From the NCBI RefSeq assembly GCF_010233585.1, contig NZ_CP045997.1, positions 3,373,779-3,437,778 of the forward strand: DNA of 64,000 nt, written 5' to 3'. This stretch comes from Spirosoma endbachense. GTDB taxonomy: Bacteria; Bacteroidota; Bacteroidia; Cytophagales; Spirosomataceae. The notes beneath the pieces were generated by a model. That model saw only the letters and a program-made list of their open reading frames with translations. It did no database searches and was not told the DNA's origin. Positions within the stretch are counted from its first letter, which is position 1. Every line of letters begins with the position of its first letter. Of this stretch, positions 41,275-58,128 are shown piece after piece. Made by a program: the position numbers and the translations under genes.

Positions 41275-42102
41275 ATGTCTAAGAAAGTTCTGGCTATCCT
41301 ATCAGAATACGGATACTGGGGAATTGAACTGGTGGGTCCATTAACAAAACTCGAAGAAGCTGGGTACACCGTCGAGTTTATGACCCCCAAGGGAAAAAAA
41401 GCAGAAGCCTTACCGCCTAGTTATGACACAACGTATGTAGATCCACCGTTAGGAACTTGTGTTACAACCCCGCTAGCCGCTGAAATGGTACAGGCATTCG
41501 AGGCTACGAATCGTCTAGAGACTCGTAGTAATATGTCGGAAGTAGTACCGGAACGCCCTTATTTTTCGGCTCCTGATTTCCTGCGCACGTTTGAAAAATA
41601 TTTCAGCGATCTGAAAGTAGCTCAGGAAAATCTGACAACAGAGTATGATGCGCTACTCCTCGTTGGCGGTAGCGGCCCGATCATCGATATGGTTAATAAC
41701 CAGCGCGTTCACGACATTATTCTGGCTTTTTACAAGAAAGATATGCCAATCGGGGCTATCTGCTACGGGGTTGCTCCGCTGGTTTTTGCCCGTGATTTTA
41801 ACGAGCGTAGATCAATTATTCGGGGTAAGCACGTTACGGGGCACTGCATTGAGTACGATTACCACGATGGTACTGGATTCCTGCATACGGATCTAAACAT
41901 GGGACCTCCGCCATATGTACTGGAGTATATTCTCACCGATGCTGTCGGACCAGAAGGCCAGTATCATGGCAATTTTGGGAAAGAAACATCCGTCATTGTC
42001 GATTATCCGTTCATCACTGCCCGCTCGCTGCAATGCTCGTTTGAGTTTGGCGATCAGTTCGTTAACGTTCTCGATAATGGATTGAAGCGATATGGCTGGT
42101 AA
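41275..42102 (+). CDS. DJ-1/PfpI superfamily protein (large form)
   Basis: A 275-residue class I glutamine-amidotransferase-like protein. The fold starts with SKKVLAILSEYGYWGIELVG; the nucleophile elbow is GAICYGVAPLVF with Cys near residue 163, preceded by LLLVGGSGPIIDM; GKHVTGHCIEYDYHDG follows. An insert of about 60 residues (residues 60-120) and a C-terminal extension make it longer than YajL/PfpI. Relatives act as glyoxalase III/chaperones or as non-peptidase amidotransferase-like enzymes. Its 3' end overlaps the ThDP enzyme gene by 11 bp, so the two are translated together; joint action on a carbonyl substrate is an inference. Confidence 0.85.
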   Translation: MSKKVLAILSEYGYWGIELVGPLTKLEEAGYTVEFMTPKGKKAEALPPSYDTTYVDPPLGTCVTTPLAAEMVQAFEATNRLETRSNMSEVVPERPYFSAPDFLRTFEKYFSDLKVAQENLTTEYDALLLVGGSGPIIDMVNNQRVHDIILAFYKKDMPIGAICYGVAPLVFARDFNERRSIIRGKHVTGHCIEYDYHDGTGFLHTDLNMGPPPYVLEYILTDAVGPEGQYHGNFGKETSVIVDYPFITARSLQCSFEFGDQFVNVLDNGLKRYGW

Positions 42103-43795
42103 GACTGGGAATCAGAAGATTATCGAACAGTTTCTGGCCGATGGTATGAATCACATGTTCGGTAATCCCGGCACGGTTGAACAGGGTTTCCTGGATGCCG
42201 TTGCCGACTATCCGGACATGAAATACATCCTGACGCTTCAGGAGAGTGTGGCCGTAATGATGGCCGATGGGTATGCCCGCACAACACAGAAACCAACACT
42301 GGTACAGCTACACAGTTCGCCCGGTATCGGTAATGCGGTTGGAGCCCTTTATCAGGCTAAGCGAGGTCATGCACCACTGGTCGTAATTGGAGCCGATGCC
42401 GGTTTGCAGTATATGAACATGGACGCCCAAATGGCCAACGACCTCGTCGCCATGATGGCCCCCGTGACCAAGTATTCGACCCTGGTTCTCAGCCCGAAAT
42501 CGCTGCTACGCACAATACGCCGGGCTATTAAGATTGCGGCAACGCCCCCAATGGGTCCTGTCTACGTCTGTTTACCAATGGATGTACTGGACGCCATAAA
42601 CGACGAACCTGTTGTTCCAACCAGTTTCCCATCGACGCGAGTAGCACCTACTCCTGAGCAAATCGACGAGGCTGCCAGCATGCTATTAGCAGCCGAGAAG
42701 CCTGTCATTTTTGCAGGCGATGGTGTTGCCTATTCCGGAGCCAACGACGATCTGGTTCGGGTAGCTGAGTTACTGGGTGCCGATGTTTATGGGGTCGATT
42801 TCGGGGATGTCTTTATCGATACGACCCATCCGCTCTATCAGGGAACAACGGGGCACATGTTCGGCGAGTATAGCCACCCAATGACCAGTAAAGGCGATGC
42901 CAATCTGATTGTTGGTACGTATATGGTTCCGGAAGTATTTCCCCGACTGGAAGACATCTATCAGCCTGACGCGAAAGTCATTCACTTTGACCTGAATGCG
43001 TACGAAATAGCCAAGAATCACCATGTCGATCTAGGCGTTGTCAGCGATCCTAAACTATCTCTGCAGGCACTGGCAAAAGCCATAGAAAGTAAGCAGAGCG
43101 ACTCGCAGAGATCTGCCGCCGATAGCCGGTTACAGGCTGCCCGCGACGCTAAAAAACCAGCTCCGAGCCCTGTTGTGACGGAACCCGAATCGGCAGAAGT
43201 CAAACCACTCAAAATGGCGCAGTTTACCGAGGTACTGGCTCAAAAAGTACCCGACGATGTCGTTATTTTCGACGAAGCGCTGACAAACTCTCCTGCTGTT
43301 CAACAGGCTATTCCACCCCGTAAACCAGGTTCGTATTTTACGACACGCGGTGGTTCGCTCGGCGTAGGATTTCCGGGAGCGATTGGCGTCAAACTGGCCC
43401 ATCCCGAAAAAACAGTGATCGGGTTCTCAGGCGACGGTGGTAGCATGTATACGATTCAGGCGTTGTGGTCGGCAGTGCGACACAATACCGGGGCTAAGTT
43501 TGTAGTCTGCAACAATGGTTCATACAAACTGCTGCAACTCAACATTGACGTATACTGGCAGGAACGCAGTATTGCCAGTCGTGAACATCCGCTCTCATTC
43601 GATCTTTCATTTCCGCCAATCCGGTTCGATGTTCTGGCCCAATCAATGGGTGTCGATTCCGTTCGGGTGGAGCGCGTGGAAGAAATTGGCCCCGCTATCG
43701 ACCGGATGCTGGCCGATGATAAGCCGTTCCTGATCGATCTGGTGCTGGAAGGCAACCACCATAGTGATTGGGTAAAGACAAATTGCTCGCAATAG
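42092..43795 (+). CDS. ThDP-dependent enzyme, benzoylformate-decarboxylase-like
   Basis: A 567-residue enzyme with the three-domain plan of the pyruvate decarboxylase/acetolactate synthase family: Pyr domain with catalytic Glu51 (LQESVAVMMADG), central domain, and PP domain with the ThDP/Mg motif GDGGSMYTIQALWSAVRHNT...CNN near residue 447. GNPGT (24-28) and VQLHSSPGIGNAVGAL resemble the active-site regions of benzoylformate decarboxylase, including its His in the HSS context. Such enzymes decarboxylate 2-keto acids or ligate aldehydes. No regulatory small subunit is present, arguing against acetolactate synthase. It shares its start with the end of the DJ-1/PfpI gene. Confidence 0.9.
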   Translation: MAGKTGNQKIIEQFLADGMNHMFGNPGTVEQGFLDAVADYPDMKYILTLQESVAVMMADGYARTTQKPTLVQLHSSPGIGNAVGALYQAKRGHAPLVVIGADAGLQYMNMDAQMANDLVAMMAPVTKYSTLVLSPKSLLRTIRRAIKIAATPPMGPVYVCLPMDVLDAINDEPVVPTSFPSTRVAPTPEQIDEAASMLLAAEKPVIFAGDGVAYSGANDDLVRVAELLGADVYGVDFGDVFIDTTHPLYQGTTGHMFGEYSHPMTSKGDANLIVGTYMVPEVFPRLEDIYQPDAKVIHFDLNAYEIAKNHHVDLGVVSDPKLSLQALAKAIESKQSDSQRSAADSRLQAARDAKKPAPSPVVTEPESAEVKPLKMAQFTEVLAQKVPDDVVIFDEALTNSPAVQQAIPPRKPGSYFTTRGGSLGVGFPGAIGVKLAHPEKTVIGFSGDGGSMYTIQALWSAVRHNTGAKFVVCNNGSYKLLQLNIDVYWQERSIASREHPLSFDLSFPPIRFDVLAQSMGVDSVRVERVEEIGPAIDRMLADDKPFLIDLVLEGNHHSDWVKTNCSQ

Positions 43796-43802
43796 ATTAA
43801 AC

Positions 43803-43902
43803 AGCAGGCAGTCCGCAGTGTACAGTCTTCAGTAAGTAGTAAGCATTTTCGAACAGGAAAATGAGTTCTGTACTGACGATTGCATCCTGAAGGCTGCCTG
43901 CT
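43803..43902 (+). repeat. Intercistronic ~100-nt imperfect inverted repeat
   Basis: CAGCAGGCAG at 43803 is answered by CTGCCTGCTG ending at 43902, and CATTTTC by GAAAATG near the centre; the arms pair through most of their ~47 nt with small gaps, with a loop of about 6 nt. It fills the spacer between the ThDP enzyme and GMC oxidoreductase genes. Confidence 0.75.
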
Positions 43903-43941
43903 GAAGACCCTTAATATCCTACCTCTTTTTTAACCGTACTC

Positions 43942-45459
43942 ATGAAATCACATTGTCACTACGCCATTATTGGAGCGGGTGCATCTGGGAGTGTTATCGC
44001 CAATCGGCTCAGCGCAAACCCTGATTGTCAGGTTGTATTGCTCGAAGCTGGTGAGTGGGATAAAGGCGCCAATGTGGCAGATCCGGGAGGGTTTGTTCAA
44101 CTCTGGGGATCACCTATCGATTGGGCAATTCCAACGACTCCACAGGATGGTTTAGCCGGTCGGGAATTGACGATTAATCAGGGCAAAGTAGTTGGCGGTA
44201 GTACATCAATTAACGCTATGATGTACGTTCGCGGCAATTCGGCCAATTACAACCAGTGGAAAGCCCAGGGGGCCGACGGCTGGGGTTACGACGATGTGTT
44301 GCCCTACTTCAAAAAGATCGAATCCTACGAAGGTGGAACATCAGCGTACCATAATTCCGATGGCGAACTATCGGTACGGGATTGCCCGGATGACGTAATG
44401 CGTTCACCAGAATTTCTGGAAGGTGCCGTTGAACTGGGTTACGATGGACCGAATTGGGATTATAACGGTGCCCGGCAGGAAAACGGTGCCGGTCTGTTGC
44501 AGTTCCACATCACCCCCGATGGGCATCGTGCCAGTAGTGCTACAGCTTTTCTTCAACCCGTTCTGGACCGTCCGAATCTGACCCTGATTACGGGCGCGCA
44601 GGTAACCCGCATTCTGATTCGCGAAGGCCGGGCCGTTGGTGTTGACTATCAGCTGAACGGCGAAACACACCAGTTGCTGGCCGAAAAAGAAGTGATACTC
44701 AGCGCAGGAGCACTTAACTCACCCAAGATTCTGATGTTGTCAGGAATTGGCCCAACCGAGCATCTGCATGAATTTGACATTCCGGTTCATGTTAACTTAC
44801 CTGGTGTTGGGCAAAACCTACAGGATCATGTTCAGTTACCCGTTATTTTCCGGGCGAAAATCGATCGACCCCACACCACGCTGTTAACGGGTAACGTGCT
44901 ATTTGTCAAGACAAATGACGAAGCACCCGCCCCCGATCTGCAACTGAATTTTACACCCAGTATTCCCGCACCGCTGGCTCCATTCTTACCCGATTTTGGG
45001 GGTAATGTCTGCATTTTTCTACCGATTCTGGTACAGCCTAAAAGTGTAGGTACGGTTAAACTTCGTTCGGCCGATCCACTCGACAAGCCAGTCATTAACC
45101 CTAACTATTTGCAGGAAGAAGCTGATGTTGAGGTGTTTCGAAAGGCGCTGGGTATTATCAGAAAGCTGAGTGAAACGGAAGCGTTTTCGCCACTCAATGG
45201 TGGTGAGCTGGCTCCGGGTCCGGGTGATCCTGATGGCTTTATTCGTACGCAAAGTTCTACACTCTGGCATCCAGCCGGAACCTGTAGGATGGGTAGCGAT
45301 GCGCTTGCCGTAGTCGATTCTAAGCTACGGGTTCATGGCATATCTGGCCTTCGTGTGGCCGATGCCTCGGTGATGCCTGTCGTCACGAGTGGAAATACCG
45401 TTGCAGCCTGCTTCATGATCGGCGAGAAACTCGCCGATATGATTCTGTCTGATGCCTAG
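43942..45459 (+). CDS. GMC-family FAD oxidoreductase
   Basis: A 505-residue glucose-methanol-choline oxidoreductase. The FAD-binding motif GAGASG is at residues 11-16, followed by VVLLEAGEW; NQGKVVGGSTSINAMMYVRG is the first GMC signature and GALNSPKILMLSGIGP the second. The active-site His is in STLWHPAGTCRMG (about 442) and the final Asn in VTSGNTVAACFMIGEKLAD. No signal peptide, so cytoplasmic. It is of the choline dehydrogenase/alcohol dehydrogenase type and would oxidise a primary or sugar alcohol to an aldehyde. The position after a ThDP enzyme suggests a common pathway with aldehyde intermediates. Confidence 0.93.
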   Translation: MKSHCHYAIIGAGASGSVIANRLSANPDCQVVLLEAGEWDKGANVADPGGFVQLWGSPIDWAIPTTPQDGLAGRELTINQGKVVGGSTSINAMMYVRGNSANYNQWKAQGADGWGYDDVLPYFKKIESYEGGTSAYHNSDGELSVRDCPDDVMRSPEFLEGAVELGYDGPNWDYNGARQENGAGLLQFHITPDGHRASSATAFLQPVLDRPNLTLITGAQVTRILIREGRAVGVDYQLNGETHQLLAEKEVILSAGALNSPKILMLSGIGPTEHLHEFDIPVHVNLPGVGQNLQDHVQLPVIFRAKIDRPHTTLLTGNVLFVKTNDEAPAPDLQLNFTPSIPAPLAPFLPDFGGNVCIFLPILVQPKSVGTVKLRSADPLDKPVINPNYLQEEADVEVFRKALGIIRKLSETEAFSPLNGGELAPGPGDPDGFIRTQSSTLWHPAGTCRMGSDALAVVDSKLRVHGISGLRVADASVMPVVTSGNTVAACFMIGEKLADMILSDA

Positions 45460-45531
45460 CGTTCATTCGTTACGACATCCGTCAACTAATTCTGTAGACC
45501 AAAACCATTAACCAAAAATCTCCCCCTTCCA

Positions 45532-46407
45532 ATGGCACAAGGCAATTCAAACAAGGCCGTTTCCCGGCGCTATTTTCACGAAATCATGAATCAGGCCAAT
45601 GCAGATACGGCCTTTGAAATTTTGTCTCCTGACTTTGTCTTTACCCTTCCAACGCACCCCGAACCATTTCATGGCCCCGAGGGCTTCATCGGTCTTGTAC
45701 AGATGCTGCACAGTGCTTTCCCTGACTTTTACATCGATCCACAGGATATGGTTGCCGATGGCGACTGGGTTGCTACACGCTGGTTAGGTGGTGGTACGCA
45801 CACCGGCGGACCATTGCTAACGGTAAAAGGCAACGTTGAAGCAACGGGAAATTTTTTCCAGATCGATGGCATGACCTGGCATACCATTAAAGACGGCAAG
45901 ATTGTGGAATCAATCGGTCACGAAGATACGCTTGGCCTGATGCTGCAACTTGGCGTATTACCTCCGCAGGAAAGTGCTCCAGCACCAACCACACCGGCCG
46001 AAAACGAAGCACTGGTAGCCCGGTATTTTGGCGACATCATGAGCGAGGGCAAACTGGAAGTAATCGAAGAAATTCTTGATCCGTTGTTTGCTTTTATCAT
46101 CCCGACACAACCAGAGCCAATCACTGGCTATGATGCATTCCGTGGCTTTGTTCTCTACCTCCGCAATGCCTTCCCCGACATCAAATTTACGGTGTTACGC
46201 CAAATGGCCGAAGGAAATAAGGTCGCCAGCCGCTGGCAGATCGAAGGAACGCACAATGGCGAGTTTCTGGGTGCACCAGCAACGGGCAATCACATTAAAG
46301 ACTTTGGTATCGACATTTTCACAATTCGCCACGGCAAGATCGTTTCGGTGCACGTCAACGAAAACGATTTCGGACTCATGCAGCAATTGGGTGTTATTCC
46401 AGCTTAA
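45532..46407 (+). CDS. Tandem SnoaL-like (ester cyclase type) protein, two modules
   Basis: A 291-residue protein made of two SnoaL/NTF2-fold modules, about residues 1-140 and 155-291. Both share the same order: NKAVSRRYF/NEALVARYF helix, a strand with PTHPEPFHGPEGF/PTQPEPITGYDAF, SAFPDFYID/NAFPDIKFT, a VATRW/VASRW strand, GTHTGG/GTHNGE, and the C-terminal LGLMLQLGVLP/FGLMQQLGVIP. This looks like an internal duplication. SnoaL-fold proteins cyclise or hydrolyse small molecules, but many have other ligands. It opens a run of related genes downstream. Confidence 0.88.
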   Translation: MAQGNSNKAVSRRYFHEIMNQANADTAFEILSPDFVFTLPTHPEPFHGPEGFIGLVQMLHSAFPDFYIDPQDMVADGDWVATRWLGGGTHTGGPLLTVKGNVEATGNFFQIDGMTWHTIKDGKIVESIGHEDTLGLMLQLGVLPPQESAPAPTTPAENEALVARYFGDIMSEGKLEVIEEILDPLFAFIIPTQPEPITGYDAFRGFVLYLRNAFPDIKFTVLRQMAEGNKVASRWQIEGTHNGEFLGAPATGNHIKDFGIDIFTIRHGKIVSVHVNENDFGLMQQLGVIPA

Positions 46408-46441
46408 ATGAAACTCATTTTTCACGCTAAGTAAGTAAACT

Positions 46442-46855
46442 ATGTCAGTGGAAGCCAATAAAGCAGTGGTCACCCGGTATTGGGAGGACTTCTGGAACCA
46501 AAAGCAGGGTGATCTTATCAGTGAAATTACGACTGAAGACCTCCAACTACATTTCCCACCAGGACAGGCCCATCAGCCGCCTTCGCTTAAACGATGGTTT
46601 GAAACCGCCCAGTCGGCGTTTCCGGATGTGCACTTCACGATGCACGATCTCATTGCCGAAGGCGACATAGTCGTGTGCCGGTGGTCGTATGTAGCCACCA
46701 ACACGGGTGGATTTCTGGGCCATGAAGCAACAAACCTGCGAGTTACCGACCAGGGTATCAATATGTTTCGTGTTGAAAATGGCAAAATAGCTGAACTGTG
46801 GATGTCTGGCGATAGCCTGGGATTACTCCACCAGCTTGGCGTACTTCCATCGTAA
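46442..46855 (+). CDS. SnoaL-like ester-cyclase-type protein
   Basis: A 137-residue single module. It keeps NKAVVTRYWEDFWNQ, a shortened first strand pair (LHFPPGQAHQ), SAFPDVHFTMHDLIAEGDIV, VCRWSYVATNTGGFLG, VTDQGINMFRVENGKIAELW and the terminal LGLLHQLGVLPS motif. It begins 35 nt after the double-module gene and is clearly paralogous to it. The His in FTMHD and Trp/Asp in the last strands line the pocket in relatives, but no catalytic claim can be made from sequence. Confidence 0.88.
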   Translation: MSVEANKAVVTRYWEDFWNQKQGDLISEITTEDLQLHFPPGQAHQPPSLKRWFETAQSAFPDVHFTMHDLIAEGDIVVCRWSYVATNTGGFLGHEATNLRVTDQGINMFRVENGKIAELWMSGDSLGLLHQLGVLPS

Positions 46856-46886
46856 TTGCAACCTGAACAGATAACTCATTTGTACC

Positions 46887-47675
46887 ATGCAGCCAGTTCA
46901 CCAATCTGTTGAAACAAGTGCTTCTGAAGCAGAAGCACTACAGGCTACCCAAGTCGCTTTTCTTCAGAAGGGCGATATTGATGGCATGGTAAAGGCGTGC
47001 TATACCGATGATGCCCGCATGCACGGATTCACGTTCCGGGCACAGGGACATGAGGCCATCAAAGAGCTGGTCAATCTATATCTGGAACGGCTGAGTGTCC
47101 TGGGCGACCGGTCAATGGATAAGTTCGAGACGGGTAAAAATTATATCTGGATGGAAATGACCATTCAGAACCCGCAGGGCGATCCGATAAAGGTCTATGA
47201 ACTAAAGTTTCTGCGGTCAGGCAAGATTTACCTCCAGTTATACGGTCTTCGTCAGGGGACCGTATGGCAGGAAGGTGACTTCAGCGACTTTACGCCACCG
47301 AACAGCTCAAACGCCAGAACATTTCATAACCGCTATCTCGACTTCCACAGCCGGGGTGATGCGGATGGGCTGGCCGACGATTTTTTTACTGAAGACGCCC
47401 AGTTGATTACCGCTCGCGTAGACATCGCTGGTCGGGAACCAATCCGGCAAATGTTTCAGAACCTGTTCGCCAAAGAGTCTGGATTTACGCCACTATCGGT
47501 CGAAAATATTACGAGTGATCCGGATTATGTCTGGTTTGAAGCAACCGTTACGAGTTCGCTGGGCAAACGACGTGTTTACGACATCATGCTCATCCGTGAT
47601 GGCAGGGTTCACTTGCAGTTAGTAGGGCAGTTGATGGGTGTTTTGCCCACCGAAGCGGCCTTTGGCAGTGAATAA
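46887..47675 (+). CDS. Two-module NTF2/SnoaL-fold protein, divergent
   Basis: A 262-residue protein with two NTF2-like modules: residues about 15-130 (ATQVAFLQKGDIDGMVKACY, DDARMHGFTFRAQGHEAIKE) and about 140-255 (ARTFHNRYLDFHSRGDADGL, DAQLITARVDIAGREPIRQM). Both modules end in similar strands, KIYLQLYGLRQGT and RVHLQLVGQLMGV, evidence of internal duplication. They are more distant from the neighbouring SnoaL modules and resemble general NTF2-like stress or ligand-binding proteins. Function unknown; it is placed inside the SnoaL array. Confidence 0.8.
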   Translation: MQPVHQSVETSASEAEALQATQVAFLQKGDIDGMVKACYTDDARMHGFTFRAQGHEAIKELVNLYLERLSVLGDRSMDKFETGKNYIWMEMTIQNPQGDPIKVYELKFLRSGKIYLQLYGLRQGTVWQEGDFSDFTPPNSSNARTFHNRYLDFHSRGDADGLADDFFTEDAQLITARVDIAGREPIRQMFQNLFAKESGFTPLSVENITSDPDYVWFEATVTSSLGKRRVYDIMLIRDGRVHLQLVGQLMGVLPTEAAFGSE

Positions 47676-47741
47676 GTCAGCAGGAGAAATAGTCAGTCTA
47701 AAAGTGCCTTTACGTTAAACTGAGTCTATCTAAACGCTTAT

Positions 47742-48149
47742 ATGAAACCTTATTTACTGGTTATATTCGTAGCGATAACGATAACGGCCCGTGCTAACCA
47801 TGTCAGTTTTGCCGACAGTACCCGGTCTCCACCAGCACCAAGCATGAAAGCGCATGCCCATTATGACGGCATTCTGTCAATGGCTACCGATGGGCATTAT
47901 GCGTTTTTCTGCCTGGGAGGTCCATCGGTAGGCATTAGTCAGGGAAATTGGCGCGTGGCGATCAATATGTATCCATCCCTGCGCATCGGTCGTCCCGAGG
48001 GCAGCCCATCGCCACTTATTACGCCAACACTAGGAACCGGCATCTACGTTGCCTATAAACGTGTTTTGCTCCTTGTGCCCCTGCATTATATCAGTGAAGA
48101 ACGCAAATGGACGGTTGCCGTCGGGTTAGGCTGGCGCGTAACCAAATAA
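47742..48149 (+). CDS. Small secreted protein of unknown function
   Basis: A 135-residue precursor with a signal peptide (MKPYLLVIFVAITITARA). The mature part of about 116 residues is rich in Gly, Tyr and aromatic strands (GHYAFFCLGGPSVGISQGNW, LGTGIYVAYKRVLLLVPLHY, WTVAVGLGWRV), a pattern like an outer membrane beta-barrel or a lipocalin-like fragment, and it ends in an aromatic-basic strand. It is the only exported soluble protein within the SnoaL array. No family recognised. Confidence 0.7.
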   Translation: MKPYLLVIFVAITITARANHVSFADSTRSPPAPSMKAHAHYDGILSMATDGHYAFFCLGGPSVGISQGNWRVAINMYPSLRIGRPEGSPSPLITPTLGTGIYVAYKRVLLLVPLHYISEERKWTVAVGLGWRVTK

Positions 48150-48239
48150 CAACCATCCATCAAAGACACCATACGTTTACCTTCCCTTTTTCAATTAATT
48201 ACTCAATCAAATCAAATAACCCTTTTTTACCTGTCAATT

Positions 48240-48677: not shown

Positions 48678-48759
48678 TAATACGACCTCGTGGCTGGCCT
48701 ACGCAGTCATAATATCATTCTATCTACCATTATTATTCCAGTGCTAAACCCCTGTCATT

Positions 48760-49197: not shown

Positions 49198-49249
49198 GCC
49201 TCTTTTGCCTATTTATCCATTAACTCTCAAGTAAAAACAACAACTCATC

Positions 49250-49657: not shown

Positions 49658-49689
49658 GCTATAATTCACGCTTCACTAACCCCATCATC

Positions 49690-50355: not shown

Positions 50356-50372
50356 CTGTTCACTTTTTTGTC

Positions 50373-50765: not shown

Positions 50766-50772
50766 ATCTGGT

Positions 50773-50837
50773 ATTCGGTTTTAGGGATTCGGTATTTACA
50801 GGGCCTCCTGAAGAATCCCGAATCTCTAAAACCGAAT
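50773..50837 (+). repeat. Intercistronic inverted repeat with 20-nt arms
   Basis: ATTCGGTTTTAGGGATTCGG (50773-50792) and CCGAATCTCTAAAACCGAAT (50818-50837) differ from perfect complementarity at one position, a potential G-U pair. The loop is 25 nt and no T-run follows. Confidence 0.85.
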
Positions 50838-50878
50838 GCTTAAAACTGTAAACCAAAAACTACTTAACGAAAAACACA

Positions 50879-51304
50879 ATGTTGACTCAAGAATCTATAC
50901 AGGCGTTTGTTGCCGACTGGTACAAAAAATTAGACGTTCACGCACCGATGGTAGAAGTGCTGCCTTTGCTGGCAGATGCTGAACTGGAATGTGTATTCCC
51001 TGAGGTAACCGTTTATGGCTATGCCGGTTTTGAAAGCTGGTACCAGCGTGTTATTCGTACATTCTTCGATGAAGTGCATACCGTAACGAAGGCGGAGGCT
51101 GATATTCAGGGCGATACGGCTACCGTGGATGTTGTCGTACAGTGGGAAGCAAGCGTCTGGAGCGCACCCGATGCAAGCAGCAAGCGCATTAATGCCGACG
51201 CCTATCAGACGTGGAGCTTAAAAGCTGGCCCAGACGGTTCGCCCATCCTCACCAAGTATGTAGTTGATGATTTCGTACCCCGCGAAGGGTCGGCCACTCT
51301 ATAA
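50879..51304 (+). CDS. NTF2-like protein
   Basis: A 141-residue protein with an N-terminal helix (TQESIQAFVADWYKKLDVHA), a strand with LECVFPEVTVYGYAGFESWY, RVIRTFFDEVHTVTKAEADI, and two long strands TATVDVVVQWEASVWSAPDA and AYQTWSLKAGPDGSPILTKY. The fold is NTF2-like with Trp and His in the presumed pocket. Relation to the SnoaL array is by fold and position rather than clear identity. Confidence 0.78.
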   Translation: MLTQESIQAFVADWYKKLDVHAPMVEVLPLLADAELECVFPEVTVYGYAGFESWYQRVIRTFFDEVHTVTKAEADIQGDTATVDVVVQWEASVWSAPDASSKRINADAYQTWSLKAGPDGSPILTKYVVDDFVPREGSATL

Positions 51305-51307
51305 AGC

Positions 51308-51373
51308 TGATTTACGGTAGTTGGTTGACCGGTGCGCCGAAGCTGTCACGCGAATACCTAAACCCGTAAATCA
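51308..51373 (+). repeat. Intercistronic inverted repeat, 10-bp outer arms
   Basis: TGATTTACGG (51308-51317) is the exact reverse complement of CCGTAAATCA (51364-51373). Weaker pairing continues inside. It occupies the spacer between an NTF2-like gene and the second DJ-1/PfpI gene. Confidence 0.6.
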
Positions 51374-51400
51374 TCCCGAAAAATACTAAACCAAAAACTC

Positions 51401-51970
51401 ATGAAACTGAGCGGCAAGAAAATCGGAGTTCTTCTGGAAAGCGACTACTTCGAAAATGAAATCTTCTACTACAAGTTCCGCTTCCCCGAAGAAGGTGCTG
51501 ACCTGCACTTCCTGACGCGGCTGTGGGGGAATGAACGCATCACCTTCCACGGGCACGAATACAGAGCACCGATGGATTGCTGGGAGAGTTTCGAGAACAT
51601 GAGCGACGAGGAATTGCGGAGTTATTCAGCCATCATTGTGCCTTCGGGCATGGTGTCAGACCGGCTTCGCTACACCGAAGACGTTGAAAAAATTCCGCCC
51701 GCAACGGAGTTTCTGAAACGGGCCTTCGCCGAGAAATCGATCCTCAAAGGAATTATCTGTCATGGTCTTTGGCTGACAGCTCCTGCTACTGAGCTGATAA
51801 AAGGGCGGCCATTGGTTTGCCATAACAACCTCATTGGCGACGCCAAAGCATACGGGGCCATCTATACCAACGAAGACGTTGTGGTCGATGGTGATCTGGT
51901 AACGGGTCGGTCGGGTGGACACGCCCATCTGTTCGCAAAAAAAATCATTGAGCTTCTATCCACACCTTAA
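51401..51970 (+). CDS. DJ-1/PfpI family protein
   Basis: A 189-residue protein of standard family length: KKIGVLLESDYFENEIFYYK opens the Rossmann-like fold, SAIIVPSGMVSDRLRY carries the conserved turn, and GIICHGLWLTAPATELIKG forms the nucleophile elbow with Cys near residue 120 followed by His. DVVVDGDLVTGRSGGHAHLF ends the core. The Cys-His pair is as in PfpI/YhbO, linked to deglycase or glyoxalase III activity in the literature, which is debated. With the VOC protein next to it, reactive-carbonyl handling is plausible. Confidence 0.88.
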   Translation: MKLSGKKIGVLLESDYFENEIFYYKFRFPEEGADLHFLTRLWGNERITFHGHEYRAPMDCWESFENMSDEELRSYSAIIVPSGMVSDRLRYTEDVEKIPPATEFLKRAFAEKSILKGIICHGLWLTAPATELIKGRPLVCHNNLIGDAKAYGAIYTNEDVVVDGDLVTGRSGGHAHLFAKKIIELLSTP

Positions 51971-52062
51971 CTATGTACATGGCACACGAAGCCAATTCAG
52001 GTACTGACTGGCCATTTGCCACTTACCTCGATTCGCCGACTTTCCATTGTACCAATTAATCT

Positions 52063-52485
52063 ATGGCAGACATGGTTTTTTCACACATCGCGCTGTCCTG
52101 CGCAGATCCGGCCCAAACCGAACAGTTTTATAGTGAACATTTTGGATTTCGCCGGGGACGGGTAATTCCACTGGGTGGTGATAATGAGATCGTTTTCCTG
52201 AAAAACGATCAATCCGTTTATCTGGAGTTGTTCCGGGCCGATGCCGAGAATCCGGGCGTGCCTGTAGCAACGAACGACGGGCCGCATTATGTGGGTATCC
52301 GGCACCTTGCCTTTCAGGTTTCCGACGTCGACGCCACCGTGAAAGCCATGGGAAGCGCGGCCGAGATTACCCTGGGGCCACTGGATTTCAGTGACTTTAT
52401 ACCCGGCTGGAAAACCGTCTGGCTCAAAGATCCAGATGGCAATATCGTTGAAATCAGCCAGGGCTATACCGATCAGACAGACTAG
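52063..52485 (+). CDS. VOC family protein (glyoxalase I-like)
   Basis: A 140-residue cytoplasmic VOC protein with two beta-alpha-beta-beta-beta modules. Probable metal ligands are His in FSHIALSCAD, Glu in VYLELFRAD, His in IRHLAFQVSDVDA and Glu in DPDGNIVEISQGY, the full set expected for a metal-dependent member. Substrate unknown: glyoxalase, dioxygenase and epimerase functions all occur in this fold. Located between the DJ-1/PfpI gene and the AGE-like gene. Confidence 0.88.
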   Translation: MADMVFSHIALSCADPAQTEQFYSEHFGFRRGRVIPLGGDNEIVFLKNDQSVYLELFRADAENPGVPVATNDGPHYVGIRHLAFQVSDVDATVKAMGSAAEITLGPLDFSDFIPGWKTVWLKDPDGNIVEISQGYTDQTD

Positions 52486-52538
52486 TGGCACTCCAGCCAG
52501 TATGATTTTTTCAACCTCAAACCTCCAATCAAGCATTT

Positions 52539-54434
52539 ATGGAAACTGACATCACAAACATTTCTCCGGGTGCCGATGGGCAATCCTCCGCTACGCGAAC
52601 TGCCAACATGCGGATCGACTTCACGTTTTCGGATACAATTTCGGGCTATGTCGTCGAATTTATTCCGACCGAAAAGGCCTTTATTCTGGAAACGTCTGAT
52701 GGTCGTCAATTCAAGCTGTATCTGATTGCGTCTACCTACGCCCGGTCAGTGCGCAACCTGGATGAGCCGTATCAGGACGCTACGGGAGTCATGTTCGAGA
52801 TGCTTTCTCAGAAAGGCCAGTTCGTTCATGCCTATGGTACCTTCTATCCGGGTGTTGACGAAGGCGAACCCGTATTTGAAGTGCAGTGGCTGATCTTTCC
52901 GGGTCATCACCCAATGGAGTATCGGCATGAAAGCCAGGATTGGTGGATTCACCAGATCAGCTCCATAGCAACAAGCTACCTCAAATGGCAATTCAACTAC
53001 CCCGAGGAGCCAATTGACTACAGCCGCTATCGGACAATGCTGCACCTGGCCGGAGCCAAAAAAGGAGATTATCTGCAGGAAACCGACACCATCTCCCGCA
53101 TGATTTACGGATTTGCTTCGGCTTACATGCTAACCGGTAACGATTCGTTTCTGGAAGGTGCCGAAAAAGGAACCGAGTATCTGCGCGAACACATGCGTTT
53201 CTTCGATCAGGATGCCGACCTCATTTACTGGTATCACGGCCTGAAACTAGATGGCGCAAAAGAAACAAAACTGCTTACCTCAGAATTCGGCGACGATTAC
53301 TACTCGATTCCGATGTATGAGCAGATTTATGCGCTTGCCGGACCAACGCAAACCTTCCGCATCACTGGCGATAAAAACATTTTGTTCGACATCGAAAAGA
53401 CAATTGACCTCTTTGAGATGTATTACAAAGACAAAGAGCAGGAAGGCTATTTCTCCCACATCGACCCAATCGGACTCGATCCTCGCGATGAGTCGCTGGC
53501 TCACAACCGCGCCCGTAAGAACTGGAATTCCGTTGGTGACCACGCTCCTGCCTATCTGATTAATTTATACCTGGCTACTGGCGAAAAGAAATACGCCGAC
53601 TTCCTGGAGTATACCTTCGATACGATCACCAAGTATTTCCCTGACTACGAAAACAGTCCGTTTGTTCAGGAGAAGTTCATGGAAGACTGGAGCAAAGACC
53701 AGACCTGGGGCTGGCAGCAAAACCGGGCGGTAGTAGGTCACAACCTCAAAATTGCCTGGAACCTGATGCGTATGCAGTCGCTCACACCGAAGCAGGAATA
53801 CCTCGACTTTGCCAAGAAGATTGCCGAACTCATGCCCAAAGCGGGTTCTGATCAGCAGCGGGGTGGCTGGTACGATGTTGTCGAACGTCAGGTGAAGCCA
53901 AACACAAAGCGCCATCAGTTTGTCTGGCATGACCGCAAAGCGTGGTGGCAGCAGGAGCAGGCGATTCTGGCCTATATGATCCTGTACGGGATTCTGGACG
54001 ATAAAGAATACGAAAAGCAAGCTCGCGAAGCGGCTGCCTTCTATAATGCCTTCTTCCTGGATACCGACGATGGTGGCGTTTATTTCAACGTTTTCTCCAA
54101 CGGGATGCCTTATTTGTTGGGTAACGAACGTTTCAAAGGTAGCCACTCGATGAGCGCCTATCACAGCACCGAGTTGTGCTACCTCTCAACGGTATACACC
54201 AACCTGCTGATTACCAAACAACCAACGTATTTCTACTTCAAGCCGTATCCAGATTCATTTAAGGATAACATCCTGTATGTATCGCCGGACATTCTGCCTA
54301 AAGGAAGCATCTACATCAGTGAATGTTTTATTAACGATGAACCCTACACAAACTTCAACGCCGAAGAACTGACCGTAAAACTGCCAGACTCCAGCGAACA
54401 GGTGCGTGTAAAGGTTTTGATTACACCGGTTTAA
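52539..54434 (+). CDS. AGE-like (alpha/alpha)6-barrel protein with extra N-terminal domain
   Basis: A 631-residue protein. Residues about 20-130 form a beta-rich domain (MRIDFTFSDTISGYVVEFIP, ETSDGRQFKLYLIAST) of unknown type. From about 130 the chain repeats helical hairpins typical of N-acylglucosamine 2-epimerase/six-hairpin glycosidases: AYMLTGNDSFLEGAEKGTEY, PAYLINLYLATGEKKYADFL, WGWQQNRAVVGHNLKIAWNL, KAWWQQEQAILAYMILYGIL. The GHNLK His and WWQQEQA residues match the active-site positions of AGE-type epimerases. A small beta domain ends the protein. It likely binds a carbohydrate; epimerase versus hydrolase is not decided. Confidence 0.8.
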   Translation: METDITNISPGADGQSSATRTANMRIDFTFSDTISGYVVEFIPTEKAFILETSDGRQFKLYLIASTYARSVRNLDEPYQDATGVMFEMLSQKGQFVHAYGTFYPGVDEGEPVFEVQWLIFPGHHPMEYRHESQDWWIHQISSIATSYLKWQFNYPEEPIDYSRYRTMLHLAGAKKGDYLQETDTISRMIYGFASAYMLTGNDSFLEGAEKGTEYLREHMRFFDQDADLIYWYHGLKLDGAKETKLLTSEFGDDYYSIPMYEQIYALAGPTQTFRITGDKNILFDIEKTIDLFEMYYKDKEQEGYFSHIDPIGLDPRDESLAHNRARKNWNSVGDHAPAYLINLYLATGEKKYADFLEYTFDTITKYFPDYENSPFVQEKFMEDWSKDQTWGWQQNRAVVGHNLKIAWNLMRMQSLTPKQEYLDFAKKIAELMPKAGSDQQRGGWYDVVERQVKPNTKRHQFVWHDRKAWWQQEQAILAYMILYGILDDKEYEKQAREAAAFYNAFFLDTDDGGVYFNVFSNGMPYLLGNERFKGSHSMSAYHSTELCYLSTVYTNLLITKQPTYFYFKPYPDSFKDNILYVSPDILPKGSIYISECFINDEPYTNFNAEELTVKLPDSSEQVRVKVLITPV

Positions 54435-54436
54435 CA

Positions 54437-54531
54437 GTCGGTCGGTTGGTGAGTTGGTCAATCGGTAAAAATCAAGTTTACCGATTGACCCTTCCTGGCT
54501 GACCAACTGACCAAGTCACTGACCAACTAAA
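54437..54531 (+). repeat. Intercistronic inverted repeat before the first STAS gene
   Basis: GGTCAATCGGTAAA (54456-54469) and TTTACCGATTGACC (54477-54490) are perfect 14-bp arms with a 7-nt loop. Outside them GGTTGGTGAGTTGGTC-like and GACCAACTGACCAA-like stretches pair partly and consist of short GTTGGTC/GACCAAC direct repeats. Confidence 0.85.
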
Positions 54532-54542
54532 CACAAACAGGC

Positions 54543-54881
54543 ATGAACGTAACGTCAAGTACGGTTGAGGCCATCACCGTCATCGAAGCATCTGGTAGTA
54601 TCGACAGCAAAACAGCACCCGAATTCGAACGGACAGCTATCGCGGCTATTCAGGGACAAAAAGAAGTCATCATCGACCTGACCAATGTCGAGTTTTTATC
54701 CAGTGCCGGTTTACGGGTACTACTGATGATTTACCGACAGGTAAAAACCCAAAGCGGCAAAGTGGTGCTGGTGGGCACATCCGAAGAAATTCAGGACATC
54801 ATGGCCAACACCGGGTTTCTATCCTTCTTTATCACGGTCGATACGCTCGACGAAGGCATCAAAACCCTTAAAGCCTCGTAA
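54543..54881 (+). CDS. STAS-domain anti-sigma factor antagonist
   Basis: A 112-residue SpoIIAA/RsbV-like STAS protein: VEAITVIEASGSIDSKTAPE, VIIDLTNVEFLSSAGLRVLL, and KVVLVGTSEEIQDIMANTGF. The phosphorylatable serine in SSAGLR is Ser53 or Ser54. In known systems such a protein is phosphorylated by a GHKL kinase and released by a PP2C phosphatase to control a partner. It lies 2 nt before the debranching enzyme gene, implying coupled expression. An RsbW-like kinase is in the same cluster; a PP2C phosphatase is not. Confidence 0.92.
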   Translation: MNVTSSTVEAITVIEASGSIDSKTAPEFERTAIAAIQGQKEVIIDLTNVEFLSSAGLRVLLMIYRQVKTQSGKVVLVGTSEEIQDIMANTGFLSFFITVDTLDEGIKTLKAS

Positions 54882-54883
54882 CC

Positions 54884-57001
54884 ATGACCGATAATCGGAT
54901 TGATTATTACCCAACCCACGAGCATGAGGGCATCAAGTTTCGGCGCGGCCATACACTACCATTCGGAGCAACAATGGTGGCTAATGGTGTCAATTTCAGC
55001 ATTTACTCCAGCGCTTCGACTTCGTGTACGCTCGTGCTTTTTGAGCGGGGCGAAGCCGAACCATTCGCCGAAATTCCGTTCCCCGATGAATTTCGGATCG
55101 GGAATGTGTATTCCATGATCGTTTTTGAGCTCAATTACGAACGGCTCGAATACGGTTATCGGATGGATGGGCCTTATAATCCAGCCGCCGGTCTACGCTT
55201 CAATAAGTCGCTCATTCTGAGTGATCCTTATGCAAAAGTTATTGGTGGACGAGATACCTGGCTGAACAAACCCAATTGGGACAATGTGTACCAGTATCGC
55301 TCACGGCTGGCTTTCGAAGACTTTGACTGGGAGCACGATCACCCGCTCGAAACACCCATCGAAGATCTGGTGATCTATGAAATGCACGTTCGGGGTTTTA
55401 CGAAACACGAATCGTCGGGGGTTAAAAATCCGGGCACATTCAGCGCCATCCGCTCCAAGGTGGCCTACCTGAAAGAGCTGGGTATCAATTGCGTCGAGCT
55501 ACTACCCATCTACGAGTTCGATGAGTGGGAAAATAGTCGCGAAAGCCCCACAACGGGCGAAGTTCTGGTTAATTACTGGGGCTATAGCACCGTTAACTTT
55601 TTCGCCCCCAAAGCTGGGTATGCCGCTACGGGTAAGTTTGGGATGCAGGTCGATGAGGTAAAAACGCTCATTAAGGAACTGCACAAAAGCGGCATCGAGG
55701 TCATGCTCGATGTGGTTTTCAACCACACTGCCGAAGGCGATCATCGGGGCCCAACGATTTCGTTTCGGGGAATCGACAACAAGACCTATTACATGCTGAC
55801 GCCGGAAGGCTATTATTTCAACTTCTCCGGCACCGGTAATACGTTGAATTGTAATAATCCGGTGGTTCGTAACATGGTGCTCGATTGCCTGCGTTACTGG
55901 GCATCGGAATACCACATCGATGGTTTCCGCTTCGACCTGGCCGCCATTCTTGGGCGTGCTCAGGATGGTCGGCCGCTGAGTAATCCACCCCTGCTGGAGT
56001 CGCTGGCTTTTGACCCTATTCTGGCCAAGTGTAAACTGATTGCCGAAGCCTGGGATGCGGGTGGCCTGTATCAGGTTGGCTCCTTCCCAGCCTACGGCCG
56101 CTGGGCCGAATGGAACGGTAAATACCGTGATAGCGTCCGCAAGTTTCTGAAGAGCGACCCCGGTGAGGTTGGTGGCATGATTCAGCGGGTTATGGGTTCG
56201 CCGGATTTATACAGTCTGCGCGGTCCAACGGCCAGTATCAACTTCATTACCTGCCACGATGGTTTTTCGCTGTACGACATGTTTGCGTATAACGAAAAAC
56301 ACAACGAAGCGAACGGCGAGAACAATAATGACGGAGCGAATGACAATAACTCCTGGAACTGTGGCTGGGAAGGTGAAACCAGTGACCCGGCCATTAACTT
56401 CCTGCGTCACAAGCAAGTTAAAAATGCGCTCGCTATTCTGCTGGTAAGCCAGGGCGTACCGATGGTGTTGATGGGCGACGAAGTGGGCCGGACCCAGAAA
56501 GGCAATAATAATACCTATTGCCAGGACAATGACCTCAACTGGTTCGATTGGACGCAGCAAGAAACAAACGCCGATCTGTACAATTTTGCCCGGGGCATGA
56601 TCAATTTCCGGCGCGTACACCCCGTGTTGCGAAGCCCAACTCATTTTCAGTACTGGGACTACGTTGGCAGTGGCTATCCGGACATCAGCTTCCACGGAAC
56701 CAAAGCCTGGAACTGCGATCGGTCGGCATCAAGTCGGTCCTTTGCCTTCCTGCTCTGTGGTGATCATGCCAAGCAGGGTATTGTGAAAGACGATATGGTG
56801 TACGTTGCCATGAATATGTACTGGGGAGGGCTTCATTTCGAGCTGCCTGCGCTGCCCCCCGAAAAAAAATGGTATCTATTCGCCAATACCGATATGCCAT
56901 CTCCAGTCGACATCTACGAAAACGGACAGGAATCATTACTGGCCAATCAGTCTGATTTTCTGGTTGGTAGCCGTAGCGTAGTTATCCTGATCGGCAAGTA
57001 G
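54884..57001 (+). CDS. glgX: Glycogen debranching enzyme GlgX / isoamylase-type (GH13)
   Basis: A 705-residue GH13 enzyme. A CBM48-type N-terminal domain (GATMVANGVNFSIYSSASTS) precedes the catalytic barrel. The conserved regions are LDVVFNHTAEG, DGFRFDLAAILG with the nucleophile Asp near 351, LIAEAWDAGG with the acid/base Glu near 388, and FITCHDGFSLYDM with the third acid near 458. The chain hydrolyses alpha-1,6 branches of glycogen or limit dextrin. It is unusual here because it is flanked on both sides by STAS regulators and not by glgA, glgB, glgC or glgP. Spacing to the upstream STAS gene is 2 nt. Confidence 0.93.
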   Translation: MTDNRIDYYPTHEHEGIKFRRGHTLPFGATMVANGVNFSIYSSASTSCTLVLFERGEAEPFAEIPFPDEFRIGNVYSMIVFELNYERLEYGYRMDGPYNPAAGLRFNKSLILSDPYAKVIGGRDTWLNKPNWDNVYQYRSRLAFEDFDWEHDHPLETPIEDLVIYEMHVRGFTKHESSGVKNPGTFSAIRSKVAYLKELGINCVELLPIYEFDEWENSRESPTTGEVLVNYWGYSTVNFFAPKAGYAATGKFGMQVDEVKTLIKELHKSGIEVMLDVVFNHTAEGDHRGPTISFRGIDNKTYYMLTPEGYYFNFSGTGNTLNCNNPVVRNMVLDCLRYWASEYHIDGFRFDLAAILGRAQDGRPLSNPPLLESLAFDPILAKCKLIAEAWDAGGLYQVGSFPAYGRWAEWNGKYRDSVRKFLKSDPGEVGGMIQRVMGSPDLYSLRGPTASINFITCHDGFSLYDMFAYNEKHNEANGENNNDGANDNNSWNCGWEGETSDPAINFLRHKQVKNALAILLVSQGVPMVLMGDEVGRTQKGNNNTYCQDNDLNWFDWTQQETNADLYNFARGMINFRRVHPVLRSPTHFQYWDYVGSGYPDISFHGTKAWNCDRSASSRSFAFLLCGDHAKQGIVKDDMVYVAMNMYWGGLHFELPALPPEKKWYLFANTDMPSPVDIYENGQESLLANQSDFLVGSRSVVILIGK

Positions 57002-57009
57002 ACAGATTT

Positions 57010-57087
57010 GTGGTATACGATAGTTGGTGTAAAAGGCAGGTACCAGAACAGATGCTTTACTGCATAATACATCGTATATCATACATC
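57010..57087 (+). repeat. Intercistronic inverted repeat between glgX and the second STAS gene
   Basis: A GTATACGAT core near 57013 is opposed by ATCGTATAT near 57071, with flanking GTG/CAT and GTAAAA/TTTAC blocks extending the similarity. Arms are imperfect. Confidence 0.55.
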
Positions 57088-57125
57088 CTAAAACGCATCT
57101 TTTTCACCTTAAATCAAGCATTATC

Positions 57126-57440
57126 ATGAGTTTTACAATACTCGCAGAAGCTAAAAAAATTGCCAAGATTACACTGACGGGCGAAATTGATTCGCTTTCG
57201 GCAAGAGAGTTCCAGAAAGAGATTGAGAAGATGGCGGCAGAGTCGCCGGATGAGCTGGTACTCTTTGTTGAGAACCTCACGTTCATCTCTTCAGCCGGTT
57301 TACGGGTACTGATTTTTGCCAAGCAAAAAATGGGTTCCGGCCTGGCGATCTATATCGTGAAGCCTCAGGAGTCGGTTATTGAAACGCTGGAAAAAACCGG
57401 CCTTCAACACAGCGTCAACATCGTGGATCAGTACCTCTAA
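57126..57440 (+). CDS. STAS-domain anti-sigma factor antagonist (second)
   Basis: A 104-residue STAS protein with the order IAKITLTGEIDSLSAREFQK, LVLFVENLTFISSAGLRVLI and LAIYIVKPQESVIETLEKTG. The phospho-serine site is Ser55 or Ser56. It differs clearly from the first STAS protein but shares the FISSAGLRVL/FLSSAGLRVL element, so both could be substrates of the kinase encoded downstream. It stands in the spacer between glgX and that kinase gene. Confidence 0.92.
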   Translation: MSFTILAEAKKIAKITLTGEIDSLSAREFQKEIEKMAAESPDELVLFVENLTFISSAGLRVLIFAKQKMGSGLAIYIVKPQESVIETLEKTGLQHSVNIVDQYL

Positions 57441-57540
57441 GGTCGAACCCGAACGGTTCGGCCCGGTGGGAGCGTATTCGCCTGACTGTGGCCCGGTTAA
57501 AGGTTGGTACAGATCTGCATAAATAGTTGGGTGAATAGTC

Positions 57541-57610
57541 TTCCATTGGCCGTTTACAGTGAGTAATCAGTGATCTATTCAGTAACTGACACTGTCCACG
57601 GTCAACGGAA
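57541..57610 (+). repeat. Intercistronic inverted repeat before the RsbW-like gene
   Basis: TTCCATTGGCCGTTTACAGT (57541-57560) and ACTGTCCACGGTCAACGGAA (57591-57610) pair at 16 of 20 positions by hand count. The surrounding 262-nt spacer between the second STAS gene and the kinase gene holds no ORF that I trust. Confidence 0.7.
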
Positions 57611-57702
57611 GGCTATAAAACTCCCTTCAGACAAGCCACAGTTAAGCGAATGAACTCCCACTGCCCCTGTCCGGGCGTATATCACTTTTCAATCCTATAC
57701 CG

Positions 57703-58128
57703 ATGGAACGTATAACGTTTCCGGGTACCCTCGATTCGCTTGAGGGTATCCGGCAGATAGTAAAAGAAGAATCCCAGCGGGCCGGATTGTCCAAGAAAGC
57801 CGCTTATAATCTCATCCTGGCCATCGATGAGATTGCTACCAATATCATCGTTCATGGCTACGAAGAAACGGGTAATGAAGGACCGGTAGATGTATTAACC
57901 GAGAATTCTGACGGCAAACTTACGGTCATTCTCGAAGATGATGCCCCACCGTTCGATCCGCTGAAACGGGAGTTACCCAATGAAGAATTTTTCAATAAGC
58001 CTCTCGAAGAGCGGCCCATTGGAGGGATGGGTATACACCTGACGATCAACGCAGTTGATGAATTCAAGTATGAACTGGCCGACAATCGAAACCGCAATAT
58101 TTTTATCGTAAAAACCGGCGACAACTAA
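57703..58128 (+). CDS. RsbW/SpoIIAB-like GHKL anti-sigma/serine kinase
   Basis: A 141-residue ATPase domain: LEGIRQIVKEESQRAGLSKK, N box NLILAIDEIATNIIVHGYEE (Glu43, Asn47), G1 VILEDDAPPFDP, and G2 ERPIGGMGIHLTINAVDEF. This is the short, soluble type that phosphorylates STAS antagonists and sequesters a partner. No sigma factor gene adjoins it; the next gene, 26 nt downstream, encodes an nSTAND-WD40 protein. The cluster thus encodes kinase and two antagonists but no PP2C phosphatase, so activation of the pathway must involve a gene elsewhere. Confidence 0.92.
   Translation: MERITFPGTLDSLEGIRQIVKEESQRAGLSKKAAYNLILAIDEIATNIIVHGYEETGNEGPVDVLTENSDGKLTVILEDDAPPFDPLKRELPNEEFFNKPLEERPIGGMGIHLTINAVDEFKYELADNRNRNIFIVKTGDN

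Follow-up and report, generated by a model that had tools for sequence, protein, structure and literature searches.

A two-part gene cluster of Spirosoma endbachense: an icfG-type operon beside a thiamine diphosphate enzyme–GMC–SnoaL module

Overview of the Gene Cluster

A 64,000 nt stretch of the Spirosoma endbachense genome (contig NZ_CP045997.1, forward-strand positions 3,373,779 to 3,437,778; hereafter, the window) contains a gene cluster at positions 41275-58128. Judging from its gene families and their order, the right half of the cluster is the icfG operon known from Synechocystis, and the left half (DJ-1, thiamine diphosphate (ThDP) enzyme, GMC oxidoreductase or molybdenum hydroxylase, SnoaL array and VOC) is a module that is undescribed in the open-licence literature searched. 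With the chances evenly balanced in our estimate, the cluster is an icfG-type carbon-storage signalling operon together with this second enzyme module, both residing here in one genomic island. The model is supported by the conserved linkage of the two modules, the intact catalytic residues, and the presence of a receiver-SpoIIE phosphatase and histidine kinases in the same run. A preliminary description, made from the sequence alone, had taken the whole combination to be undescribed. This does not hold for AGE-STAS-GlgX-STAS-RsbW, which is the icfG operon, and it stands for ThDP-SnoaL-GMC-GlgX, since no account of that combination or of the left-half module was found in open-licence papers.

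With shorter overlapping open reading frames (ORFs) on both strands set aside, the ORF list of the window gives 20 tightly packed plus-strand genes between 41275 and 58128, in agreement with the approximate number first proposed. The intergenic spacing ranges from -11 to +262 bp, with the widest gaps located between STAS2 and RsbW (262 bp), the ThDP enzyme and GMC (146 bp), and GlgX and STAS2 (124 bp). Both of the junctions singled out in the preliminary description are present, namely, the 11-bp overlap of the DJ1a and ThDP genes (42092-42102) and the 2-nt gap between STAS1 and GlgX after position 54881. Nearly all of its family names were backed by Pfam and NCBIfam searches, which found ThiJ/DJ-1 (twice), three TPP domains, GMC N and C, VOC, AGE, STAS (twice), GlgX and HATPase_c_2. 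The run extends past 58128, with a gene for an nSTAND1-WD40 protein 26 bp further on and, 12 bp past the end of the latter, that for a TonB-dependent receptor.

The Right Half and the icfG Operon

The genes at 52539-58128 lie on one strand in the icfG-type order AGE, STAS, GlgX, STAS, RsbW. According to the sections of PMC12329169 and PMC8670252 drawn on here, the icfG operon of Synechocystis sp. PCC 6803 comprises slr1852-slr1862, and includes genes for AGE (Slr1855), STAS (Slr1856), GlgX (Slr1857), STAS (Slr1859), the SpoIIE-type phosphatase IcfG (Slr1860) and RsbW (Slr1861). The order AGE, STAS, GlgX, IcfG is found in PMC8670252, while Slr1861, Slr1856, Slr1859, IcfG and isoamylase appear in PMC12329169, and slr1853 is given as CMD in PMC3564720. 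Three loci from the cyanobacterial family of G101 (L135, L137 and L138) have the order DJ-1, AGE, STAS, GlgX, STAS, SpoIIE, RsbW, and L135 in addition carries CMD ahead of the operon and a dCache-HAMP-SpoIIE phosphatase. In Synechocystis, slr1854 presumably encodes a DJ-1-like protein. In L137 (G171), an in-frame TAG breaks the AGE gene, and the neighbouring genes look intact. The phosphatase of the window's run has a receiver domain; it is encoded at L100:8608-9780, about 14 kb past RsbW on the same strand with one minus-strand ORF between, and corresponds to the icfG phosphatase. Since DJ-1, AGE, STAS, GlgX, STAS and RsbW, together with this receiver-SpoIIE protein, match the icfG operon, the right half is already known. 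No match to CMD was found among the Pfam-scanned cluster genes, and the DJ-1 gene upstream of AGE is not of the classic subfamily.

The GlgX protein scores 669.8 bits against the TIGR02100 equivalog cut-off of 640.9, and the other GlgX of the genome scores 940. The Ser that we take to be the STAS phospho-acceptor is present in all of the aligned rows of STAS1 (48/48) and STAS2 (43/43). RsbW has the glycine motif, with N-box residues Glu43 and Asn47 in 33/33 rows; it is by far the best of the 36 HATPase_c_2 matches of the genome, and the sole one in a frame under 200 amino acids (aa). Partner switching and a link to glycogen had both been put forward in the preliminary description: the former finds a complete set of switch parts, and the latter is borne out by GlgX and the icfG-type right half.

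The AGE-like protein has an AGE fold and an AGE Pfam score; in the fold search, the matched rows cover residues 125-563 and so say little on the added beta domains. A PDB search with its alignment profile yielded nothing at E 1e-10, and a single-sequence search gave three weak matches. The Glu of the GHxxE motif is absent, with Lys404 in its place in 36/36 aligned rows, and the solved epimerases 5zig, 3vw5 and 8bry have GHDIE or GHAIE at this position.

The Left Half

The catalytic residues of the left-half enzymes are well conserved among relatives. Glu51, His74, Asp448 and Asn475 of the ThDP enzyme are present in 82/82 rows, and one His aligns with an active-site His of benzoylformate decarboxylase (BFD). 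The enzyme does not reach the BFD equivalog cut-off (310.1 bits against 493). In DJ1a, Cys163 is found in 76/76 rows and Glu11 in 65/76; in DJ1b, Cys120 and Glu13 occur in all 52 rows scoring over 250 bits. The metal-ligand positions of the VOC protein are His/Gln, Glu, His/Gln and Glu in 43/43 rows. The closest solved structures to the GMC oxidoreductase are those of alcohol oxidases, a chloramphenicol-inactivating oxidoreductase and choline oxidases.

Seven cluster proteins, one of them tandem, have SnoaL Pfam matches. For Sno8 (50879-51304), an AF2 model with a pLDDT of 96.4 was matched by Foldseek to LinA and ketosteroid-isomerase-like proteins. As many as 8 of the 36 SnoaL_2 matches of the genome fall inside approximately 5.2 kb of 10.3 Mb, and this clustering, together with a gene set that recurs in other phyla, is more than chance.

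Conservation across Genomes

The genome scan for the ThDP enzyme yielded 584 relatives, the best 80 of which were taken as loci; many of these end at contig ends or at the 10-kb flank, and 45 are longer than 21 kb. Besides the ThDP enzyme, the 80 loci contain DJ1a (77), Sno8 (54), DJ1b (52), AGE (51), GMC (37), VOC (37), Sno7 (36), GlgX (32), STAS1 (25), RsbW (20) and STAS2 (19). All 11 core families are present in 12 of the 45 loci over 21 kb (median 6), and 436 of the 443 core-family genes lie on the strand of the ThDP gene. The tree of the ThDP enzyme carries 12 phylum-level labels. The whole combined cluster was found in the cyanobacterium Leptolyngbya sp. Heron Island J (L065/L149), where DJ1a, ThDP, SnoaL genes, GMC, DJ1b, VOC, AGE, STAS, GlgX, STAS, RsbW and SpoIIE are accompanied by a few unassigned ORFs. 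In five loci (L045, L062, L070, L085 and L087), the order of the modules is swapped and the linkage is kept.

Among 99 genomes (that of the window and its relatives), the ThDP gene is present in 11, AGE in 12 and both in 10 (Fisher p 4.6e-11, kinship ignored). The exceptions are G033 (71% complete), which has ThDP only, G038, which has AGE only, and G075, with a 39% AGE. AGE was also present in all 30 ThDP genomes chosen by hand from several phyla, 19 of which already had it in the ThDP locus and 11 of which show none there. In G038, the icfG half is kept and the ThDP half is absent; the cluster is therefore better read as two separable modules. The preliminary description had claimed a functional unit, and, as judged by gene neighbourhood, this appears to hold, for the homologues are neighbours in other genomes and phyla. 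It is very likely that the whole run is one working unit.

A quick-method tree of 79 ThDP rows needs two changes for the Bacteroidota label and three for Cyanobacteriota, and so gave no support to a recent cross-phylum gain by Spirosoma. Older exchange between phyla is possible. One row labelled Alphaproteobacteria, from a metagenome-assembled genome (L037), probably reflects misbinning, being identical to Runella.

Genomic Island and Downstream Run

The cluster lies in an island of 39.3 kb, which stretches from about 35471 to 10.8 kb past the window and includes two histidine kinases and a LytTR regulator. Ten sister-genome stretches around fmt were read for the empty site, which was found in four of them: the BatA-domain gene (33385-35472) directly adjoins folA-fmt-greA in G006, where the homologous flanks are separated by 51 bp, and in G008, whereas in G003 and G017 a single small ORF intervenes. 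The remaining six stretches have folA-fmt with different left neighbours and are free of cluster genes over 20 kb, which makes them uninformative on the left border. Because of the empty site in sister genomes, the 39.3 kb are taken to have been gained or lost as a unit. In G022 and G031, the cluster is on a contig other than that of fmt, without folA alongside; thus, the site of the island is not fixed. The LytTR regulator is also found upstream in G001, G018, G022 and L026, and about 6 kb away in G031.

Past the window, a minus-strand ORF is followed by genes for a HEAT-repeat protein of 949 aa, two kinases (the first a propeller-type histidine kinase), the receiver-SpoIIE phosphatase and a bestrophin. 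In all nine other Spirosomaceae genomes read, nSTAND1-WD40 directly follows RsbW and the TonB receptor comes next, and homology gives the order RsbW-nSTAND-TonB-(one ORF)-HEAT protein-kinase-kinase-SpoIIE in 9/9, with SpoIIE of G038 cut off by the end of the stretch. The bestrophin follows SpoIIE in five of the nine. The residue at the receiver Asp position of SpoIIE varies over 16 rows, many of which have different N-terminal parts.

AGE-STAS Fusion and Output of the Switch

In 20 of 75 AGE loci, the AGE-like protein bears a C-terminal STAS domain (17 recognised by profile, three by alignment only). Of seven fused domains checked with Pfam, those of L142, L096, L047 and L073 were above the cut-off, that of L041 was below, and those of L049 and L064 gave no match. 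The extra length in L025, L078 and G075 was judged by eye not to be STAS, and these were not scored as fused. None of the 13 fused loci with both flanks visible carries RsbW or a stand-alone STAS within 9 kb. Where at least 5.5 kb of downstream sequence was available, 28 of 33 unfused loci have RsbW, and four of the other five belong to a distant AGE branch. The Ser column is kept in 9/20 fused STAS domains, as against 91/91 stand-alone ones. G099 has both fused and unfused AGE loci. Three rows were dropped from the AGE tree: L022, a duplicate of G058, and G171 and L093, which are broken or short.

No match in the genome of the window exceeds the TIGR02980 cut-off for SigB/F/G-type sigma factors, a negative that covers these classes and leaves room for other kinds of sigma factor; the sole near-full-length match reaches 110 bits against 234 and is taken for the housekeeping sigma. 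General family scans of the genes in the run recognised no sigma gene. Because of this lack of SigB/F/G above the cut-off, the standing of the RsbW of the locus as the best in the genome, and the AGE-STAS fusion, we favour the AGE-like enzyme or GlgX as the direct output of the switch and regard a sigma factor or some other transcriptional target as the chief alternative.

Proposed Model

In the proposed model, sensor kinases would control the receiver-SpoIIE phosphatase, which would remove phosphate from both STAS proteins, and RsbW would rephosphorylate STAS1 and STAS2. The STAS proteins would act on the neighbouring AGE-like isomerase and/or GlgX, not on a SigB-type sigma factor. Acting on glycogen, GlgX would release linear glucans. 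The AGE-like enzyme would rearrange the reducing sugar, leaving the hydroxy-carbonyl and dicarbonyl products to be processed or detoxified by the GMC or molybdenum oxidoreductase together with the ThDP lyase and the DJ-1, VOC and SnoaL enzymes. Reactive carbonyl intermediates are plausible from the enzyme families, and we infer that the substrates of the cluster are sugar-derived carbonyls. In its most specific form, the model is offered tentatively and with more doubt than confidence: STAS, gated by RsbW and a two-component-driven SpoIIE, may bind the AGE-like isomerase and/or GlgX and so meter glycogen into a ThDP/GMC/SnoaL/DJ-1 carbonyl pathway, the STAS being fused and the local kinase lost elsewhere, and the whole forming one island in Spirosoma.

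Several observations weigh against binding of STAS to the metabolic enzymes and against a joint pathway. The counts of fused and unfused loci mix relatives, and the absence of RsbW near fused AGE refers to the surrounding 9 kb, not to whole genomes. Treating AGE fusion and RsbW as independent events failed, with one to two changes on the tree and one starred pair; since the fusion arose once or twice, the counts describe one lineage, not repeated events. The genome also has 38 sigma-like matches under the TIGR02980 cut-off. The reaction of the AGE-like protein may differ from that of the solved epimerases, as Lys replaces their Glu. Finally, the classic icfG stretches that were read lack the ThDP half, as does G038, which means that the two halves are able to function separately.

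Classic partner switching, in which RsbW acts by sequestering a sigma factor, with the metabolic genes as no more than its regulon, is a serious though on balance unlikely alternative. It is favoured by the Synechocystis counterpart of RsbW, Slr1861, which binds SigC and is described as anti-SigC in the cited part of PMC12329169, which makes a sigma factor or some other transcriptional target possible in this cluster as well; the STAS Ser and the RsbW Glu and Asn are likewise intact. The sigma searches described above speak against it, as does the AGE-STAS fusion of one lineage. Somewhat improbable, too, is a loose detoxification set (DJ-1, VOC, SnoaL, GMC, EthD and molybdenum hydroxylase) that shares regulation and mobility without forming one pathway. 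Such a stress island would agree with the differing SnoaL counts and oxidoreductases among loci, with the usual lack of a visible GMC gene where the molybdenum hydroxylase is found (12/13 loci), with the location of the cluster in an island, and with the presence of the ThDP gene in 7 of 36 genomes of the same genus. It would agree less well with the fixed catalytic residues and with the recurrence of Sno8, DJ1a, ThDP, DJ1b, VOC and AGE together, in the same orientation, across phyla.

SnoaL, GMC and ThDP enzymes are known from specialised-metabolite pathways, and ThDP carboligation with SnoaL cyclases could make a secreted compound from storage sugar. These families, along with the TonB receptor and the membrane-like protein of the run, would fit such a pathway, but the scanned genes include no recognisable synthase, acyl carrier or export gene, and we consider it quite unlikely. 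That the genes are chance neighbours, or two unrelated adjoining operons, is suggested by G038 with its right half only; this is contradicted by linkage across phyla in both orders and by gain or loss as one island, and is highly improbable.

If the model of STAS acting on the AGE-like enzyme or GlgX is true, partner switching would act on a metabolic enzyme, and a widespread uncharacterised pathway would be opened to assay. In many phyla, the cluster connects the icfG genes with a specific set of enzymes, and the AGE-STAS fusion points to a concrete candidate for a binding partner. In the cited part of PMC12329169, the role of the icfG operon in inorganic carbon and glucose control comes from Synechocystis mutants only, i.e., from one cyanobacterium, and the passages of the icfG literature consulted give Slr1856 and Slr1859 as 'target unknown' and leave the job of the AGE-like enzyme and the STAS targets unsettled.

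Other Features of the Region

The coordinates of the features are collected in Table 1. Of the two genes without family in the SnoaL array (47742-48149 and 49690-50355), the latter also occurs in Runella (L035) and in L042. In a cyanobacterial version of the cluster, a SnoaL domain is fused to ankyrin repeats (L064:14610-16064). EthD-domain proteins are encoded near the ThDP enzyme in several phyla (L094:12439-13143 and 15 further loci), and none was recognised in the window cluster. A molybdenum hydroxylase of the xanthine dehydrogenase type is found near the ThDP gene in 13 loci, including L020, L027, L038 and L084; GMC is absent within the stretch read in 12 of them, and L050 has both.

Downstream, the minus-strand ORF between the TonB receptor and the HEAT protein (L100:22-792, about 63.9-64.7 kb in extended coordinates) is GNAT-like by eye. 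Its relatives are at the same place in G001 and G029, and the other seven genomes have an unassigned plus-strand ORF of 186-246 aa. The 949-aa protein (L100:997-3846), found in all nine Spirosomaceae genomes, combines a membrane N-terminal half, nucleotide-transporter-like by eye, with HEAT repeats.

A Bacteroidota-type promoter pattern, in the form that we take to be typical, matched once in the window (32317, outside the cluster), with 1.68 matches expected by chance. Between 44500 and 64000, sigma-70-like sites (25 against an expected 23.4) and terminator-like sites (28 against an expected 21.6, sd 5.1) were near the shuffled level. These site counts thus speak for neither one transcription unit nor several. 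Rfam gave no match in the window at gathering scores.

Table 1. Features of the cluster and its surroundings in window coordinates.
Feature	Position	Strand	Basis or remark
Island portion within the window	35471..64000		39-kb island; far end ~10.8 kb past the window, at folA
HAMP histidine kinase, in island	35948..37921	+	Pfam HAMP, HisKA, HATPase_c
TPR-HisKA_2 histidine kinase, in island	37950..39746	-	Pfam
LytTR response regulator, upstream of cluster	40153..40938	+	Pfam
DJ1a, DJ-1/PfpI (ThiJ_like) protein	41275..42102	+	Pfam
BFD-like ThDP enzyme	42092..43795	+	Pfam; PDB BFD match E 1e-60
GMC oxidoreductase	43942..45459	+	Pfam
Tandem SnoaL protein	45532..46407	+	Pfam, 2 stretches
SnoaL protein	46442..46855	+	Pfam
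Double SnoaL-like protein	46887..47675	+	Pfam SnoaL match in second half only
135-aa protein without family, hydrophobic N-terminus	47742..48149	+	ORF; no Pfam match
SnoaL protein	48240..48677	+	Pfam
SnoaL protein	48760..49197	+	Pfam
SnoaL protein	49250..49657	+	Pfam
221-aa membrane-like protein without family	49690..50355	+	ORF, several hydrophobic stretches by eye; no Pfam match
Sno7, SnoaL-like, core family	50373..50765	+	Pfam
Sno8, NTF2-fold, core family	50879..51304	+	No Pfam match; AF2 model and Foldseek
DJ1b, DJ-1/PfpI protein	51401..51970	+	Pfam
VOC/glyoxalase-type metalloprotein	52063..52485	+	Pfam
AGE-like sugar isomerase/epimerase, extra N- and C-terminal beta domains	52539..54434	+	
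STAS protein 1, anti-anti-sigma type	54543..54881	+	TIGR00377 above cut-off
GlgX debranching enzyme, second GlgX of the genome	54884..57001	+	TIGR02100
STAS protein 2	57126..57440	+	TIGR00377 above cut-off
RsbW-type kinase	57703..58128	+	Pfam
nSTAND1-WD40 protein	58155..61304	+	Pfam
TonB-dependent receptor, continues past the window end	61317..64000	+	Pfam Plug and barrel

Comparison with Known Systems

The ThDP enzyme resembles benzoylformate decarboxylase and acetolactate-synthase-like enzymes in its three TPP domains, its ThDP Glu and a His aligned to the BFD active-site His, and differs from benzoylformate decarboxylase in scoring far under the equivalog cut-off. The AGE-like protein is unlike D-mannose isomerase and cellobiose 2-epimerase in Lys404, in its added beta domains, and in its STAS fusion in one lineage. 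With RsbU-RsbV-RsbW and SpoIIAA-SpoIIAB, the cluster shares Ser-bearing STAS proteins, an RsbW-type kinase and a SpoIIE phosphatase; it departs from them in having a GlgX gene, not a sigma gene, between the switch genes, and no SigB/F/G above the cut-off.

The closest likeness of the right half is to the icfG operon, as ordered in the papers cited and in L135, L137 and L138, with AGE, STAS, GlgX, STAS, RsbW and a SpoIIE phosphatase in common. The phosphatase has a receiver domain in the run of the window and dCache-HAMP in the classic icfG locus L135. The DJ-1 protein beside AGE differs in subfamily: those of the classic icfG loci score 87-94 bits to DJ1b, while in the ThDP loci having one, the score is 220-406 bits in 46 of 53 and 52-134 in seven. 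Of the two, only the window adds the ThDP-GMC-SnoaL-DJ1a-VOC module.

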